Shown here one piece after another: positions 1 through 18,526 of a DNA stretch of 64,000 bases. Source of the stretch: Arabidopsis thaliana. Taxonomy: Eukaryota > Streptophyta > Magnoliopsida > Brassicales > Brassicaceae. The DNA lies in contig NC_003074.8 in assembly GCF_000001735.4 (NCBI RefSeq), positions 4,960,101 to 5,024,100 on the forward strand. Direction: 5' to 3'. A model generated the notes under the pieces. It did no database searches. It saw only the letters and a program-made list of their open reading frames with translations, and was not told where the DNA came from. Made by a program: the position numbers and the translations under genes. Position 1 is the stretch's first letter, and every line of letters starts with the position of its first letter.

Positions 1-1796
1 TTTAAGAGCATCGTTAATAAAACCCTTCGAGTGATCAAATCCCATTTGGTTTCCAGAAAACCATCATAAACTTATTCTTCTTTCAGGATCTCATTTGCGG
101 ATTTGCCTCTCAATTTGGTCAACACGTATACTATCCTAGCGAGACGCTACTCATACGCTCATTATTACAATTAAAGTACAATCATTTATATTATGAGTGA
201 AGTTATTATCTACGTTATCTGAAATTATAACTTACGTACGCGAGTGAATACATATACTCCAACTTGTGAAGAAATTAACGTTTTTCCGATAAATCACTTT
301 ATTGATATATCAAATTACCGATGATATAGTTGATTAAGCCATGTCGCTGTTTCGCTGAAGTATGTTTAAAGTACGACGCCACGCGATCTGTATAACAAAG
401 CGTGGGACAATCAATCTTTCAATCTAGCTAACGTTACGCTAATATCACGAATTTTTCTATTCTATATATGTATTCAATGGGTTTGACTTTTACTTTGTGA
501 CACATTTATTCTTCATTAAGCTGATTGGTTAAACAGATTTAAACCTTTCTCTTTACAATAACCATTATAACCTATATAACATAACTCATGTAATAAGCCG
601 ATAATCGAGCGCGAGACACATGAGTTTATCCATTAGTCACTGTCAGTCTGTCACCAACCATTCAGAACATTTGTTTTAAATTTTAATTACGTGAATGATC
701 TAATTACGACATTGTAGTAATCAAGTGGCTAAGCACTTAAGCTTATCCAATTTTCAGAAATTATATATACCATTCGATTTCGGGTGTATACAAAATGTAT
801 ACGGCATTAAATAAAATAAATATTTGATTTATAATGTAACGTAGAATATATTTTATTTTTGAACAATTACGTAGAAATATCAACTAGATTAACCAGAAAA
901 ACACGTGAATTAAGCAAAAGAAAAGTCATTAGGAGACTTTTGCTATTGATTTTAAAATATTTGTGGCGCTCTGAATGTCTTGGTTTTGAATATGATGTTA
1001 TTCATTATATAATTTAATTAAACGGAGAAATATATAACCTTTTTTTTGTCAAAAGGAGAAATATATAACCTAAGTAATCAAATGTGTCTAGTTTTGTTAT
1101 TTTTCTAAATAATTATGACCAGGCCTTGTCGAATTAAAAGTTAACAAGTTATGATGAATGTGTCCGAAAAAGTTTGAGATACATAAATCAATAAATCACA
1201 TCACGTAGACATCAACAAATAATTTGTGTATTTCTAAACGTGCAAATATTTCCTCTGTCGCAATTTCCTTGAATCGTACAATAAAAAAAAAAAAACGCAT
1301 GGGTTAAAAAATAAGTGTGGCTGAGAATTGATAGGTAGAAGTTGTTGTTAAATTATTGAACAAGCCAGCTCCATCGGTAGTGTGCCATATGCACCGCAAA
1401 AAAAGTGATTATCAACTACGATGGTTAAAAAAGAAAAATCTTCTCTTACATTAAAAATAATAAATTCTTTTTGTTTTACCGTTTCAAAATGGATTATATT
1501 TCCAAGCAGTATCTATACAAAATTAATTCCATACATACTCTAGTTATTAATATTTTCCATATTTAAAATAAAACTTTGATCTACTTTTCTATTCTTTTAT
1601 CAAATAGATCCGTATTTTGAATATATGTTTTAAGGAATTAGATCTCTCTCTTTTTTCCTGTCATGCAATTCGTAGACAAAAATATAATTTGTAAACTAAT
1701 TAAATATTCGAAAACATAAGTTCAAAGATAACTTAAATGTAAATATTTAGTGTCTTACAAACCATAGGAATAGAACAACTAGATAGAAGATAAAAT
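1..1796. other. Gene-free AT-rich intergenic stretch
   Basis: I see no open reading frame or RNA gene that I can support here. The stretch is AT-rich with scattered homopolymer runs. A short direct duplication of about 17 bp (GGAGAAATATATAACCT) lies at roughly 1024-1070, its two copies split by a T-run. It probably holds the 3' flank of the minus-strand gene that ends at 1797. Confidence 0.6.
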
Positions 1797-3365
1797 TTAA
1801 AGGCTTAGTTTGTCGTTTTTGTTGTTATCGGTTTGGTTTGCTCTCATAGATGGAGGTACTTGGTCTGGAAACATGTTTTGCATCATGTTAGTCCAAAAGT
1901 CGACATCCTTGAGTTTCAGCTCCATCTCTTCAATCTTCTTCTCCAGCTTGTTCAACTTTTCTTGTGTCTCGAGATACTTATCTTCGTAAAACAAAGATGG
2001 AACCGCCTTCATTGATCCATATGCAAAACGTTTGTCTTTCTTTATTTGAACCTCCTAAAACCCCCAAAAAAATACTTTTAAAAGAAAGTTAGTTGATAAC
2101 TTATAAAATTATTGTTAGAAAATAAATAATTTTTAAAAATTCAAAAGTGTCACCTCTTTGTATATGTCATCTTTTTCATCTTGGGTGAGATATTGGTGGT
2201 CTCCTTGAAACATTTGAGTTAGTCTCTCGTCCTCTAAGACTTTGCTCTTCTCAACTACCAACTCGGCTTTTTGGTCGACAAAGGTCTCGTCCGAATTTAT
2301 CTTGTTGGTCTCCTCCATTGAGGTGTCCATATCAAGGAGCTCACCAATCTCCTCATCCCGGTTTAATTGTATACTTTCTGGGGTTGAGGCACGGCCCATA
2401 CTTGATTCGATTTTCCTTAGAATTTCATATAAAACAGAAGCAATGCTGCGTGCATTTATCAACTTCTCTTGCTGACTATATTCAGATAAATTTCCATAGG
2501 TTAATGTTGGTTCGTTGAAATTGAACTAGAACTAGCAATAGTCAGTAGATTTTTTTAAAAATGGAGGATATATATATACCTATTATCCAAATTGAATGAT
2601 GCACCATGTCTGATGATGTATTCATTGTAAGCATGATAAACACGTTTGAGTTCCTTATGATCATTTATTTCCTTTCTTCTTCTTATAGTAAACTCGTCAT
2701 CCTACTACAAGTAAACAAATTAAAGATCAAGACAAACAACATAACAACTTAATATATAAGGTTAGAAATTTCATGAATTATCCGGAGACTGATCCACACC
2801 ATTCATATGATCGGTCATATCTTAAAAAAAATCAAGAAACTAGCTAGAATCAGTGTCACGTTTTCTACTCTTAGGTGACTTGCCTTCTCTAGCCTTCGAA
2901 GAAGAGAATTTTTGAACTGTCGTACACCTCTTCCGTTAGATCTACTGTCAATGCGGTGAGCTTCTTCAAAAGTATAAAAACGGCCTACGACCAGAAAAAA
3001 TAAAAAGATTAACATATAAATTATGATTCTTTAACAAGAAAGCGTGAATTTCGACTCAAAAACAGAGAAAATCCTAAAGTAGTACTCAAATTTAGGGAAT
3101 TAGACGAGAGTAAAGTAAACTCACATAGATAAGCAACACGAGGATCATCAGACTCAACCAAGTTTGCTACACGAAGAAACCTTTGAATCCCTGAGGCTAA
3201 TGTCTCCGGAAGCTTCTCGCTGTCATAGGGCTCCCACACATATTGTTCTTTCAAAGCGAGGGGTCTCGTGAACAAGCTGGTTGCCGGCGAATCTTCCGGG
3301 AGGATGGGATCCATATCAAGAAAAACATCGGTAGGATCCACAGGGGCGATTTCGTTAGACGACAT
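1797..3365 (-). CDS. Chimeric callose synthase N-terminus / En-Spm-type transposase C-terminus protein
   Basis: Five exons on the minus strand: 3365-3125, 2984-2884, 2701-2580, 2475-2154, 2054-1797; 1044 nt, 347 aa, no internal stop. Residues 1 to about 178 follow the start of plant callose synthases (glucan synthase-like): motifs LRVANLVESDDPRVAYLC, GRGVRQFK, RRLE and ARSIASVLYE. From memory the closest relative is CALS8/GSL4, encoded nearby on the chromosome. Callose synthases are about 1,900 aa, so the membrane domains and the glucan synthase domain are absent. Residues about 214 to 347 instead resemble the C-terminal region of plant Ptta/En-Spm transposase-related proteins: an ETFVDQKAE motif, a DEKDDIYKEV motif, a KRFAYGS motif, then a Glu/Lys-rich coiled coil. 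Intron 2 needs a GC donor (AAG|GCAAGT at 2883). No enzymatic activity can be expected from either part. Probably At3g14780. A pseudogene is the main alternative. Confidence 0.72.
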
Positions 3366-4690
3366 TGGGAGATGAAAGCTGCTTCTTCTATTGTTTTAGT
3401 TGGCATGGAGATAACATTGGAGATGGAATTAATTATATAAAGCAGCACTTGCTTAGCGAGGTGGAATTCTATAAAATAAACAATGTAAAGACGGTGTTTG
3501 AAGTGTTAATTAAAAGTGATTTATTGGAGGAGAAAAATGCTTTCTACTAGTTTGGTACTAGAGAAAGTGGTTTCCTAGCAAAAGTTTACACTTTACACGA
3601 TAATATCAACGTGCATGGGAAAAGAAAAACCATTAAAACAAGTTGAGATAGACTAAATCTTATGAATTGGAATATAATTAAAGCATATGTATATATTTCT
3701 TAGCCACCAAGAATATACCAAAATATAGACTACAAAAATAACTTGATGTCCAAATCAAACCAAATTGTAAAATGTATTAAAAAAAATTAGTCATCTTTTT
3801 TTTTTTTGTAAAACAAACTTTTTTAGTCATCTTTCGGTACAAATCATAGATGAGTAGTCGATGTGTTCAAAATTATCATTTTATTTATTACCATTTTATT
3901 AATGGTAATTTTTGTTCTAACTATTTGTTTAGTTTGAATGTGTGATGAAATTAATTTCTAAAGCGTAGTAGTAGTAGTAATGGGTAATTTGGTCATTGCG
4001 TAGTCTCCCACTGGTTCTCCGTAACTGTCTCAAAATTACTCATTTGAGACGCTCATTCGTTTTCCTTCGTTCCCTCTCTTTCTTCACACTCCTTTTTTTA
4101 TTTATTTCCATTGATCTCTCTCCTCTCCTCGATTTTTCCCTCCTTTAATCCATCTCTGCATATTCTTCAAGCTTGGGTTCATCTTCATCTTGATCTGAAT
4201 CGATCCGGTATGTGAACTCTTTCTCTTTCCCTCAATTCTCTATAAATCTCTAAGCTCAATTCGTTATTGTACGTCTTCGTTCTGCGTTTGATGCCGTATC
4301 CTGAAGTTTTTTTTTTTTTTTCGGTTCATGATGCTTTCTCATCGTTTTCCACTGGATCTGCTGCTAAATCTGGGAAATTTTAGCGTATTTGGATTTGCTA
4401 CATTTGTCATACATACTTCTGGATCTAGATCTGCCTTATTTTTTCCTTGATCATTTCGAATTTTGGATTAATAGTTGTAGCTTGTCCTTTTATCAATTCG
4501 AATCTCATGACTTTGATTGTACTGAATCACACAGTGAAATTTTGTAAAAAAGGATAGATTTTTGAATGGTTCTGCTTAGTGTGTAGTCTAACTGTTTGAT
4601 TAAATGTCGCAAGATGAAGTTTTTCTTGTGCTGTTTCGTCTGTCAATGAAGCTTTTCTGAATTGAATTTTCATGGGTTTTGATGTTGCAG
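3366..4690. promoter_or_regulatory. Divergent intergenic region; RHM3 promoter and leader
   Basis: This separates the minus-strand chimeric gene from RHM3. A CT-rich leader-like tract lies at about 4060-4150, as expected around a plant transcription start and 5' untranslated region. A probable 5' UTR intron occupies 4208-4690 (donor CCG|GTATGTG, acceptor TTGCAG|ATG), so translation would start at the first base of the next exon. T-runs lie at 3799-3809 and 4309-4321. I cannot pick a TATA box with confidence. Confidence 0.55.
4208..4690 (+). other. Intron in the RHM3 5' untranslated region
   Basis: The donor GTATGTG follows the CT-rich leader, and the acceptor TTGCAG sits directly before the ATG at 4691. 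The in-frame ATGs just upstream (4679, 4682) fall inside this intron, so they should not serve as starts in spliced mRNA. Confidence 0.6.
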
Positions 4691-6775
4691 ATGGCTACAT
4701 ATAAGCCTAAGAACATCCTCATCACTGGGGCTGCTGGATTCATAGCCTCTCATGTTGCTAACAGACTAGTTCGCAGCTACCCTGACTACAAAATTGTTGT
4801 GCTTGACAAGCTTGATTACTGTTCTAATCTGAAGAACCTTAATCCTTCTAAATCCTCTCCCAACTTCAAGTTTGTGAAAGGAGATATCGCCAGTGCTGAT
4901 CTCGTCAACTACCTTCTCATCACTGAAGAAATCGACACCATTATGCACTTTGCTGCTCAAACCCATGTTGACAATTCTTTCGGTAATAGCTTTGAGTTTA
5001 CCAAGAACAATATTTATGGTACCCATGTCCTTTTGGAAGCTTGTAAAGTCACTGGCCAGATCAGGAGGTTCATCCATGTGAGTACTGATGAGGTCTATGG
5101 AGAGACTGATGAGGATGCTTCAGTGGGTAATCACGAGGCTTCTCAGTTGCTCCCAACTAATCCATACTCCGCCACTAAAGCTGGAGCTGAGATGCTTGTC
5201 ATGGCATATGGTAGATCATATGGGTTGCCGGTTATAACAACTCGCGGGAACAATGTTTATGGTCCTAACCAGTTTCCTGAAAAGTTGATTCCTAAGTTCA
5301 TCCTCTTGGCCATGAATGGGAAGCCTCTCCCAATCCACGGAGATGGATCTAATGTGAGAAGTTATCTCTACTGCGAAGATGTTGCTGAGGCATTTGAGGT
5401 TGTTCTTCACAAAGGGGAAGTTAACCATGTCTACAATATAGGGACAACGAGAGAAAGGAGAGTGATTGATGTGGCTAATGACATCAGTAAACTCTTTGGG
5501 ATAGACCCTGACTCCACCATTCAGTATGTGGAAAACCGGCCATTCAATGACCAGAGGTACTTCCTCGATGACCAGAAGCTGAAGAAATTAGGATGGTGTG
5601 AGCGAACCAATTGGGAAGAAGGACTGAGGAAGACAATGGAATGGTATACTGAGAACCCTGAGTGGTGGGGCGATGTTTCTGGAGCTCTGCTTCCTCATCC
5701 ACGGATGTTGATGATGCCCGGTGACCGACACTCTGATGGCTCTGACGAGCACAAGAATGCAGATGGTAATCAGACATTCACGGTGGTTACTCCCACCAAG
5801 GCTGGTTGTTCCGGAGACAAAAGATCCTTGAAGTTCCTCATCTATGGGAAGACTGGGTGGCTCGGTGGTCTTCTGGGAAAACTATGTGAGAAACAAGGGA
5901 TTCCTTACGAGTATGGAAAAGGAAGACTAGAGGATAGAGCTTCTCTCATCGCAGATATTCGCAGCATCAAACCAAGTCATGTCTTCAACGCCGCTGGTTT
6001 AACTGGGAGACCCAATGTTGACTGGTGTGAATCTCACAAAACTGAAACCATCCGAGTCAACGTTGCTGGAACTTTGACTCTTGCAGATGTTTGCAGAGAG
6101 AATGATCTGTTGATGATGAACTTTGCCACTGGTTGTATATTCGAGTATGACGCTGCACATCCAGAAGGTTCAGGGATTGGTTTTAAGGAAGAAGATAAAC
6201 CGAATTTCACTGGTTCTTTCTACTCAAAAACAAAGGCAATGGTAAGATAATATCACATAACCAAATCACATCTGATCCTCAGTCTCTTGAACTCTGTCCA
6301 TAAAAAATCCTCTTGTTTCTATTTTTGCCAGGTGGAAGAGCTTCTAAGAGAATTTGACAACGTATGCACCTTGAGAGTGCGGATGCCAATCTCATCTGAC
6401 TTAAATAACCCGCGAAACTTCATCACGAAGATCTCGCGTTACAACAAAGTGGTGAACATTCCAAACAGCATGACCATACTAGATGAACTCTTACCAATCT
6501 CGATCGAGATGGCGAAGAGGAACCTAAGGGGAATATGGAACTTCACCAATCCAGGAGTGGTGAGCCACAACGAGATATTAGAGATGTACAAGAGTTACAT
6601 CGAGCCTGATTTCAAATGGTCCAACTTCAATTTGGAAGAACAGGCTAAGGTCATTGTTGCTCCACGGAGCAACAACGAGATGGATGGTGCCAAGCTCAGC
6701 AAGGAGTTTCCAGAGATGCTTTCCATCAAAGATTCGTTGATCAAATACGTCTTCGAACCTAACAAGAGAACGTAA
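4691..6775 (+). CDS. RHM3: Trifunctional UDP-L-rhamnose synthase
   Basis: Two coding exons, 4691-6241 and 6332-6775; 1995 nt, 664 aa, the length I recall for RHM3 (At3g14790). The family converts UDP-D-glucose to UDP-L-rhamnose in the cytosol for pectin, flavonoid and glycoprotein synthesis. The N-terminal half is the UDP-glucose 4,6-dehydratase: a Rossmann nucleotide motif G13-A-A-G-F-I-A19 and an active-site pair Y159-x3-K163. A linker around residues 340-380 leads to the C-terminal 3,5-epimerase/4-keto-reductase, which has its own motif G386-K-T-G-W-L-G392 and Y511-x3-K515. The single coding intron falls just after the YSKTK motif. All key residues are present, so the enzyme looks intact. 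The start is the ATG that follows the 5' UTR intron acceptor. RHM1 and RHM2 (MUM4) are close paralogues; length and sequence favour RHM3. Confidence 0.96.
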
Positions 6776-7506: not shown

Positions 7507-9495
7507 TTAAATAGAGTTTGAGATTGTACCCTCTGTTTCTGTAGACAACCAGTCATGTGCACAGAACAAAGCCTGTCTGATATCAGGGTTCAAGGAACTC
7601 TGACTATCAGAGATCACCGGTGTCCCAGAGTTGAAGGTTGAATCAGGCGCACAGATTGACATCGGCGTACCCAAAATGTCACGGGCCAACAAAGAGAGGA
7701 TAGGGTATCTTGGTGTATGGACCTTCCAGTAATTCAGAATGTTGAACTCGCCACTACGGGGAAAGATCGGTTCAGACAAGTACTTGTCCAAATCCGTTGT
7801 TGTGTTTTGGTTCTGAGAAGTCTCGTGAAGAAACTTGTCGAACCCTTTCAGTCTGTCTCTAGTGTCCATACTAGCTCTACCTAAACCGGATCCAGAGAAG
7901 GAATCTTCACCGACAATGGCTGAGCACATCGAATATGCATCAAGAAGCTCCTTGACACCATTCGACACTTCCTTGATACGATCCAGAGCGGTACTGCCAT
8001 AGATCTTAGAGTAGTAATACTCTACCAACTTCATCTTGAATCGCGGATCCAATATCGCAGCGATTGCTAAAACAAGGCTGCATTTGTTCCAATACTCATC
8101 GAATTTAGCCTTCATATTTGCTGCGAGAGAACTCAAGAAGTTGTCCTGGTTCTTGCACCACTCGACCAACTGGATGTGGATATCACACATCTCAGCAAAG
8201 TATACATTTGCTGTAGGACATTTGTTTGCTGAAAAGTCAGAGGCAATATCGAATACAAGTTTAAGATAACCAGTAACGTATCTTGTCCATTCCCACTCCT
8301 CGTCGGTTAGAGATGAATCAAAGCTGTGATCGTGATCACGCAGATGGCAAAACGCACCCTTGTACTCCAATACGGTTTCAAGCATCACGAACGTAGAGTT
8401 CGAGTTAACAATAGAATCAAGAACCAAGATCTTCTGGGAGTTGATTCCGGCGAGTTGAGCAATTTCGTTGAACCTTACTTGTGTTGATTGCGAGCTCTTG
8501 ACATATCTCACACTTCCTCGAATCTTTTGGATCACATCTCTCATAGCCTCCAAGCAATCTTCGACAAGAGAATTCAGAAGATGAGCGGCAGATTTCAACT
8601 CAAATAACTGCCCGTTGATTAATATCTGGCTGCTCTGAGACATATGGTCTTTAATTCGCAGGACAATCTCTTCATTAACAGAAACACTGTCGAACGTAAC
8701 AGCGAAAAGCTTGTTCTCAAGACTCCATTCAATCAAACATCTGATGATCACTTCCGAGAGCATATCTTCAGTATGAGAAGGATCCAAGGTGATAAAGTTT
8801 AGAACATTCCTATGTAGCCTCCACTCCTCATCGATATAATTAGAGGCCAAACACACATAGTTAGAATTATCCCGGGAAGACCACATCTCCACCGAAAGAT
8901 TGACTTTACCGTATAAATGATTCAAAGTGTGCTGCACTCTCTGCTTCTCCCTAATGTAAATCTCCATACATGAATCCTCAATTGTGCTATTTGGCACAGC
9001 TTCAAACAACGGCTGAAGATTCCTAGCAAAAACTTTGAATCCAACATGATCAACCATGGCTAACGGATAATTGTGCAAAATAATCATACGTGCAAGATCA
9101 ACCTGACTCCTTTCTTGACTAAACCTTCCACCACTTCCTCGGCTTAGAACCACCTCGTCCCTTCGTTGGTCCTGATCAAACTTAGGTCTAAGATACTCTT
9201 CTTTCGCTTGACCGTCATCAAAATTGATAGTAGCAACAGTAACTGGATTCTCTTTTTTCCTTCTTTTAGGTGTCAGCAACTGAGACATGTCGTGATTAGT
9301 TCTTTTGAGACACCGCATAAGATGGTTCCGAAGATGAGTTGTTCCGCTGTTGCTCGAACCACTGAGTTTTTTATTACACTGAATGCAAACAGCATAGCAC
9401 ACATCAGCCTTTCTCACTCTCTCAAAGTAATTCCAGACAACAGATGTCAACCTCTTTGATTTCTGCAAGATTATCTCATTTGATTCATCCATCAT
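7507..9495 (-). CDS. Domesticated hAT transposase-like BED zinc-finger protein
   Basis: Intact intronless reading frame of 662 aa on the minus strand (second ATG one codon in). Residues about 18-65 form a BED zinc finger with ligands C37, C40, H58 and C62, so DNA binding in the nucleus is likely. The rest follows the hAT transposase fold: an RNase-H-like segment containing VTFDSVSVNEE, a segment KCPTANVYFAEMCDI, and LAIAAILDPRFKMKLVEYYY, ending with the hAT dimerisation region (DLDKYLSEP, FNILNYWKVH, YPILSLLARDIL). Conserved transposase positions have changed: the usual CxxH reads SAAH, and the TRWNSTYLML motif reads VNSNSTFVML, losing the Arg-Trp. I see no flanking terminal inverted repeats. 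This pattern fits a DAYSLEEPER-type co-opted gene rather than a mobile element. Probably At3g14800. Its cellular role is not evident from sequence. Confidence 0.85.
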   Translation of the reverse strand: MMDESNEIILQKSKRLTSVVWNYFERVRKADVCYAVCIQCNKKLSGSSNSGTTHLRNHLMRCLKRTNHDMSQLLTPKRRKKENPVTVATINFDDGQAKEEYLRPKFDQDQRRDEVVLSRGSGGRFSQERSQVDLARMIILHNYPLAMVDHVGFKVFARNLQPLFEAVPNSTIEDSCMEIYIREKQRVQHTLNHLYGKVNLSVEMWSSRDNSNYVCLASNYIDEEWRLHRNVLNFITLDPSHTEDMLSEVIIRCLIEWSLENKLFAVTFDSVSVNEEIVLRIKDHMSQSSQILINGQLFELKSAAHLLNSLVEDCLEAMRDVIQKIRGSVRYVKSSQSTQVRFNEIAQLAGINSQKILVLDSIVNSNSTFVMLETVLEYKGAFCHLRDHDHSFDSSLTDEEWEWTRYVTGYLKLVFDIASDFSANKCPTANVYFAEMCDIHIQLVEWCKNQDNFLSSLAANMKAKFDEYWNKCSLVLAIAAILDPRFKMKLVEYYYSKIYGSTALDRIKEVSNGVKELLDAYSMCSAIVGEDSFSGSGLGRASMDTRDRLKGFDKFLHETSQNQNTTTDLDKYLSEPIFPRSGEFNILNYWKVHTPRYPILSLLARDILGTPMSICAPDSTFNSGTPVISDSQSSLNPDIRQALFCAHDWLSTETEGTISNSI

Positions 9496-11122
9496 ACAAA
9501 ACTTGTATCCCTGCTACACCAAAATCCCTATTCATTGATTTAAACAACACAATTAGACTGAAACAAAAAGATCAGTTTTTTTACACAATTACAATGGCGT
9601 GAGAGTTCTGTGATTATCCTAGAGCATCACACCATCAGCATCAAAACCAAGTTCAGTAAGACGAAAGCCTACTTGATGAATGCACCACATTCATTGATCA
9701 AAGCAACAAACTTGAGACTAATTTACACAATTAGAATGGCATGAGCGTTACAAAGATCATCCCAAAGCATCACCATCAGCATTACACAGTCATAGCTTTG
9801 ATCAAAACCAAAAAAAAATCACCATTGCAACAGAGATCATCAAATCATAAAACCAGGATGCGCCACATTATTCAACAATAAAAACCACCACACAAAATTC
9901 AATGAAATCAATCAAAGGTACAAACTTTAGGATGAAATTAGTCATACACTAGAAACAAACAAAACCCTTATGAATTTTGCGAGCAAGCTTTTGATATCAA
10001 GAAATTAGCCGAGAGAGTGAAAGAAGAACAGAGCAATAGCAAGAAAGTTTGAAATTTGGACACCTTTGTTTATAAGAGAAAAAAGCAAAGCCGTCAGAAT
10101 CTTTGGAGACTAGAATCGGAGGATCCGAGGAGCTCTTTTAAGGGTTACGGGTGGAAGAAGCTGGATCGAAGAATATCAGATCCGATGGACGATTTGGGTT
10201 TTAAAGACCCGCATTTAGGGGTTCGGGTGGGTTAAACCGATGGAGGAGAAACCAAAATCCGGTTTTGGATCCGAATTTATCCCGGTTTCGTTGTAAACGC
10301 GGTTTTTGGCGCGGTTGGATAGATCTGATTAGTGATCCGATCTCAATTAATCCAATATTCTTTCTTTTTGTTAATTATAGACTTATAGTATTCAAAATTA
10401 AGATGTTAAGATAATGTTTAATTTATAAATATGAATCCTGTTAATGGTAAATGATAACTAGTTAACTACATTGTCAAATACATATTTAAGGGTATATTGA
10501 CCTAGCTAACAAGATGGTCGAAGAATAACAAATCTCTCAAAACACTTTAATCTAAACTATTTATCATAATCTCAATGTGTTTTGACGTTACGAAAAACTT
10601 CAATTTCATTTCCTTCTCATCAATTCCATTTATAAATTATATATTCTTCTTTTTAAAAATATGGGAGTATATGCTTAGTTAAAACTCGAGTAATTTGCAA
10701 AAATTATAATAAAATCATTTTATCATTTTCAGTGATATTTTAGAAGAAGAAATTTTTTTTTTATTAATGTGAGGTTTTCAACTTTCAACTTTCTATACAT
10801 AACTAAATATTTTTTGACCTATTATATTTTACAGTACTTTTTATTGGATTAATTAGTTATAGACTTATAGAGTTATAGTTAATAATGTTTGTACAATTGC
10901 GCTTTCATTTCCTCGATTTAGTAGAACAACATCATAAAATGTCTCAAGGCCAATAACTTAGCTACAACAATGACTACTTATTGCTTAAATTACCACAAAC
11001 TAACTTACTTCAACTTTTACAAAACCACTCATACATATTATATACACCATTAACAATCATAATCTTCTTTCCCATAACGCAACGAAAAATGCATTTCTCT
11101 GTTTCTCTAGAATCTTTCAAAT
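9496..11122. promoter_or_regulatory. Upstream region of the hAT-derived gene and 3' flank of MSL5
   Basis: Roughly 9496-10250 is the 5' leader and promoter of the minus-strand hAT-derived gene. It contains an imperfect direct repeat (about 75 bp, period about 142 bp, see 9581-9810), and GC is higher around 10100-10330, as expected near a transcription start. From about 10360 to 11122 the DNA is AT-rich without recognisable features and leads into the 3' end of MSL5. Confidence 0.5.
9581..9810. repeat. Imperfect direct repeat in the hAT-gene leader
   Basis: TTACACAATT followed by an AATGGCRTGAG motif occurs at 9581 and again at 9723. In both copies a similar run follows with GATTAT/GATCAT, AGCATCAC and CATCAGCAT blocks. 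The two units are clearly related but have diverged by substitutions and small indels, so this is an old local duplication. Confidence 0.65.
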
Positions 11123-17912: not shown

Positions 17913-18526
17913 TTAACTATTAAAGACGTTCAAAAAGCTATATGCATGTATATATGTATATATTTACAACAGAACGTTATTTGTTAATTAATACAGTATT
18001 TGCAGGTGGATCTATCAATTTATTTTACATGGGCCAAAAATTTAAATAGAGATTACTTTACCATCTTTCAAATTCAATCAAGAAATGGAAAACGGAATAA
18101 AATATGTTGAATAAAATTAAATGATTATATGCTAAGAAGGAAATATGAATTGACGTGTGAAATGAAAAAGGAAACAAGATAATTCTAAATGGCAAATAAC
18201 ATTCAGTTTTGAGAAGTGAATATGTTAATGGGGGAAGAAATTATTTTTTAAAAGGGGCGATTTATTAATTTCTTAGAAATCTATAAGAAAATTAGAAAAT
18301 TTATGGGTGGCAAGAAAGCAGATCCGCCCATGTGCATGGATGTGAGATCATTTTCTTGTAATATGTATTTTGTTTGATATTTGTCCTTTAAAATATCTCA
18401 GATTTTGTAATTTTGATTTTTAATTTCTGTATAAAATTTTGCCTGAATTCGCTCTTTCTGTTTCCTTTTCAACATATTTTGTTTTTTTCATTTTGTTTAC
18501 GGTTACGTGTATCATTTTTCAGACAG

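Follow-up and report, generated by a model that had tools for sequence, protein, structure and literature searches.

How a gene can open as a callose synthase and end as a transposase is the question raised by positions 1797-3365 of a 64,000-nucleotide stretch of Arabidopsis thaliana DNA (contig NC_003074.8, C3:4960101-5024100; here denoted the window). Joining the exons on the minus strand gave one open frame that combines coding sequence of a host gene with that of a transposon, as shown by Pfam and by the exon joining itself. A preliminary description, made from the letters of the window, had proposed this gene; its coordinates, strand, exon number and length of 347 amino acids were exact, and the frame is open and spliceable as it had stated.

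Structure of the fusion gene

The features of the gene are as follows.

1797-3365, minus strand: gene, five exons, 347 codons and a stop codon (exon joining)
3125..3365, minus strand: exon 1, start codon and residues 1-80, codon 81 split; GSL4-like (alignment to GSL4 exon 1)
2884..2984, minus strand: exon 2, GSL4-like; the next intron is GC-AG, as it is in GSL4 (alignment to GSL4)
2580..2701, minus strand: exon 3, GSL4-like (alignment to GSL4)
2154..2475, minus strand: exon 4, chimeric, GSL4-like as far as 2419 and transposase-like from 2360 (DNA and protein matches)
1797..2054, minus strand: exon 5, transposase-like, Ptta/En-Spm C-terminus with a heptad helix and the stop codon (genome matches)

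Introns 1, 3 and 4 are of the GT-AG type and intron 2 is GC-AG. The introns contain 68-81% AT and the exons 51-68%. When intron 4 is retained, the frame extends only as far as 2133. We take the gene to be AT3G14780, a name that the literature searched does not mention, either as a whole word or within a longer one. The divergent neighbour, from 4691 onward, is rhamnose-synthase-like (Pfam Epimerase and GDP_Man_Dehyd). Elsewhere in the window, at 7507-9513 on the minus strand, a 668-amino-acid open frame carries zf-BED, hAT RNase-H and hAT dimerisation domains; this hAT-like transposase gene has possibly been adopted by the host.

GSL4 as the source of the first half

Searched against the genome (119.66 Mb, 7 contigs), the DNA of 1797-3365 matched four places: the gene itself, one locus on C2 (72%) and, at C3:4892721-4893456, two stretches that adjoin each other (75% and 77%). 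The C3 stretches lie in the 5' end of a callose synthase gene whose start codon is at C3:4892643, on the opposite strand and ~69 kb from the fusion gene. We assume from its position that this is GSL4/CalS8 (AT3G14570). The latter locus is named GSL4/CalS8 in PMC5683620, which describes the callose synthase module as Vta1-FKS1-GluSynt.

The DNA match to GSL4 (E 1.5e-72) spans exons 1-4 and introns 1-3, and the other GSL genes matched the first half more weakly. Residues 1-180, which are 69% identical to GSL4 at the protein level, thus represent a DNA-level copy of its 5' end, with introns and promoter blocks included. Intron places over exons 1-4 are common to the two genes, as is the GC donor of intron 2 (GCAAGT). 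By reading of the sequence this donor stands at the same place in GSL4, where it is the only one that preserves the frame, the GSL4 exon ends being read from the sequence as well. Pfam Vta1 covers residues 60-176 with 36.8 bits (cut-off 26.8), and the FKS1 and glucan synthase domains had no Pfam match in the fusion protein at E up to 1. The two corresponding claims, a callose-synthase N-terminus and the lack of any catalytic part in a frame that ends after 347 codons, were therefore borne out. Unlike GSL4, the fusion has neither FKS1, glucan synthase domain nor membrane part and ends in transposase sequence. Beyond the known blocks, a search of the window for the rest of GSL4 returned only a 35-bp match at 17933.

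Two blocks upstream of the start codon are also common to GSL4.

3418..3462, minus strand: core promoter block, 80% over 45 bp, holding TATATAA (read from the sequence)
3605..3766, minus strand: upstream block, 73%

The GSL4 counterpart of the upstream block lies ~1.07-1.25 kb ahead of the GSL4 start codon, ~0.8 kb farther out than in the fusion gene, so that DNA must have been gained or lost in one of the copies. Adjoining this block, window positions 3558-3628 show an 85% match to C2:11231193-11231267.

The second half follows the 3' end of a CACTA transposase gene

For residues 194-347 the match is to the two final exons of a CACTA/En-Spm tnp2 transposase family. With residues 174-347 as query, the genome yielded 14 matches at E up to 0.01; two were self-matches, and transposon copies reached values as low as E 3e-21; several genomic copies are 47-63% identical over at least 60 amino acids. 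Pfam Transposase_24, which has at least 184 matches across the genome, was found at residues 181-272 with 26.9 bits and E 6e-6, slightly under its cut-off of 28.7. An En/Spm-type C-terminus had been proposed, and the check suggested for it, a comparison of residues 205-347 with Ptta/En-Spm proteins, returned the same genomic copies and the Transposase_24 match and so did not refute the proposal.

By reading, the last two exons recur in the related copies, and the intron that precedes exon 5 is at the same place in them. The element that contains one of these copies (denoted L041, C1:12.70 Mb) has a CACTACAAGAAAA end, Transposase_21 (E 1e-73) and Transpos_assoc, which identifies the family as CACTA/En-Spm. 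The Transposase_21 (tnp2) core present in L041 is absent from the fusion by Pfam. Close to the fusion C-terminus, 8 of 10 a/d places of a heptad helix are hydrophobic; L041 has the helix too, indicating that it arrived with the transposon. Compared with tnp2 elements that carry a Ptta-type C-terminus, the fusion tracks their last two exons and ends at about the same point, but it has no transposase domain and no terminal repeats and is not repetitive. At the level of coding DNA the closest transposon copies are ~64-67% identical to the fusion and 93-96% to one another.

The join lies within exon 4

Similarity to GSL4 stops at 2419 and transposon similarity begins at 2360 (residue 194), which places the join inside exon 4, in agreement with the earlier estimate of about 2300-2400.

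2361..2418, minus strand: join zone, 58 bp, weak similarity to the end of GSL4 exon 4 and intron 4 (shuffle tests)

By reading, the matching exon of L041 and of a second transposon locus, L006, starts at the same codon as the transposon similarity of the fusion, and in L041 an acceptor-like AG precedes it. To find the source of the 58 bp, GSL4 and two transposon loci were compared with them in eight shuffle tests. Seven gave p values from 0.057 to 0.998, and one, with the end of GSL4 exon 4 plus intron 4 under loose scoring, gave p 0.009; taken together, the tests assign the zone neither to GSL4 nor to the transposon loci.

Origin of the fusion and retention of its frame

Both sources, the common introns and promoter blocks and the open frame are plain from these comparisons, and the gene is a clear example of the known host-transposon chimeric type. 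We consider it probable that an inverted copy of the GSL4/CalS8 5' end (promoter blocks, exons 1-4 and introns 1-3), derived from ~69 kb away, was placed next to the 3' end of a tnp2 transposase gene of the CACTA type, and that the frame has been retained. In such an arrangement the GSL4-type promoter and start codon would drive a frame that ends in the last two transposase exons and their stop codon. Transcription and splicing as drawn, and hence a protein product, are predicted from the gene structure.

The fusion could instead be a non-functional relic, a partial GSL4 duplicate beside transposon debris whose frame is open by luck or through a recent join, and which is weakly transcribed or silent. 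We regard this as quite possible, if doubtful. It accords with a truncated product that has no catalytic part. It has to account for 347 codons free of stops and frameshifts, while the introns hold nine gaps relative to GSL4, seven of which are not multiples of three; in the exons, all three gaps are multiples of three. All nine intron gaps fall in GSL4, the fusion introns being the longer. Identity to GSL4 is 71% in introns (200 of 281 aligned bases) and 79% in exons (407 of 518). Under neutral drift at 0.13-0.33 substitutions per site, 3.4 to 8.7 stops would be expected in the first 180 codons, and none was seen; for the whole frame the chance of no stop is 7e-4 to 4e-5 (0.13-0.18 substitutions per site). 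Of the positions invariant in five other GSLs, 50 are also retained by GSL4, and 7 of these 50 are lost in the fusion, where 12.5-26 losses would be expected. The counts of stops and of lost invariant positions assume a join of about the same age as the duplication.

Codon models were fitted to 175 codons of the GSL4-like half, aligned for the fusion, GSL4 and five further GSL genes. When the fusion and GSL4 were given neutral branches of equal length, omega was 0.42 on the fusion branch, above GSL4 (0.18) and the rest of the family (0.04), as a relic would lead one to expect; a value of 1 was nonetheless rejected for the fusion branch (2 delta lnL 11.4). Omega fell to 0.32 when the fusion was allowed to mutate twice as fast, and rose to 0.62 at half the GSL4 rate, where 1 was not rejected at the 5% level (2 delta lnL 3.4). 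When branch lengths were left free, it was 1.02, no better than 1. The codon test therefore speaks for constraint only if the two copies share a rate; as they sit in one genome, this is a reasonable assumption, not a proven one. The counts of gaps, stops and invariant positions lean toward constraint as well, and part of this constraint may be older than the join, if a longer GSL4 copy came first. For the second half, comparison with four transposon copies gave omega 0.05-0.15, with synonymous sites saturated and a branch that covers the transposon's own past. By its gaps and its lack of stops the frame looks old and retained, and we infer that it was kept for coding over much of its age.

Capture by a CACTA element lacks support

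The preliminary description had invoked CACTA elements, which capture host exons. Elements of the Pack-CACTA type leave a 3-bp target duplication, and no CACTACAA terminal inverted repeats with such a duplication were found around the GSL4-like piece. The soybean element Tgm-Express reportedly also holds gene pieces within CACTA sequence. Pack-TYPE elements, with gene pieces inside CACTA elements, are described for Arabidopsis in PMC8903248. The fusion resembles these systems in its chimeric frame and in having host exons beside CACTA sequence, and its tail derives from a CACTA family; it differs from them in being single copy, in including the host promoter and in showing neither element ends nor a target-site duplication. 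Capture was not supported: window positions 1-6000 contain no exact CACTACAA/TTGTAGTG, and near-matches to CACTA ends in the window are no commoner than in shuffled sequence. The 9.9 kb that precede the window hold a single exact CACTACAA/TTGTAGTG, unpaired and at a distance of ~9 kb to the gene. Against the genome, the 1.8 kb past the stop codon matched only itself, and neither this flank nor the promoter side contained a transposon end matched elsewhere at the sensitivity of the search; CACTA ends may exist in decayed form. The host part begins with its own promoter blocks and continues through the GSL4 5' end with its introns, and only the last two transposase exons follow, so that the structure is better explained by a fragment of a host gene joined to transposon remains than by a host exon carried in an element. 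That a CACTA transposon took the GSL4 exons and brought them here as a Pack-CACTA-like element is thus very improbable.

Predicted product and its possible role

On the reading that we favour, a retained frame formed by an inverted GSL4 copy, the product is predicted to be a soluble Vta1/LIP5-like domain of the tandem-MIT type with a heptad-repeat helix behind it; glucan synthase and membrane parts would be missing. Compared with solved structures, the family profile of the N-terminal region matched the Vta1/LIP5 N-terminal domains 4txp, 2lxm and 2lxl with E values of 7e-9 to 1e-8. The literature describes GSL4/CalS8 as a callose synthase that acts at plasmodesmata under stress (PMC9893415, PMC5683620); NCRK is reported to bind it (PMC9893415), and it is treated further in PMC3928550. 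The Vta1-like domain would bind whatever the GSL4 N-terminus binds, and the transposase-derived helix may self-associate. Given the domain, the plasmodesmal location of GSL4 and the binding of NCRK, a competing or scaffolding role is conceivable, nothing more. The most likely action of the product, if it has any, would be to tune or compete with GSL4 at plasmodesmata. In its full form, this proposal would make the gene a retained regulator, in which a truncated, soluble Vta1-like GSL4 head, dimerised by the helix and expressed from a GSL4-type promoter, adjusts plasmodesmal callose by competing with GSL4 partners or acting as a scaffold for them. We think this unlikely, and it would amount to a decoy at the protein level, with a gene duplicate and a CACTA transposon as its sources. 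A decoy role had been raised as speculation in the preliminary description.

Chimeric genes are useful for learning how new genes acquire promoters, introns and stops, and here both parents can be read in one genome, each half has a parent that can be named and the join is narrowed to 58 bp. From the retained frame follows a claim open to test, namely that the head of a callose synthase is kept without its enzyme. If the fusion is a relic, it would be an ordinary result of duplication; if the decoy role is true, callose control at plasmodesmata would gain a transposon-derived regulator.
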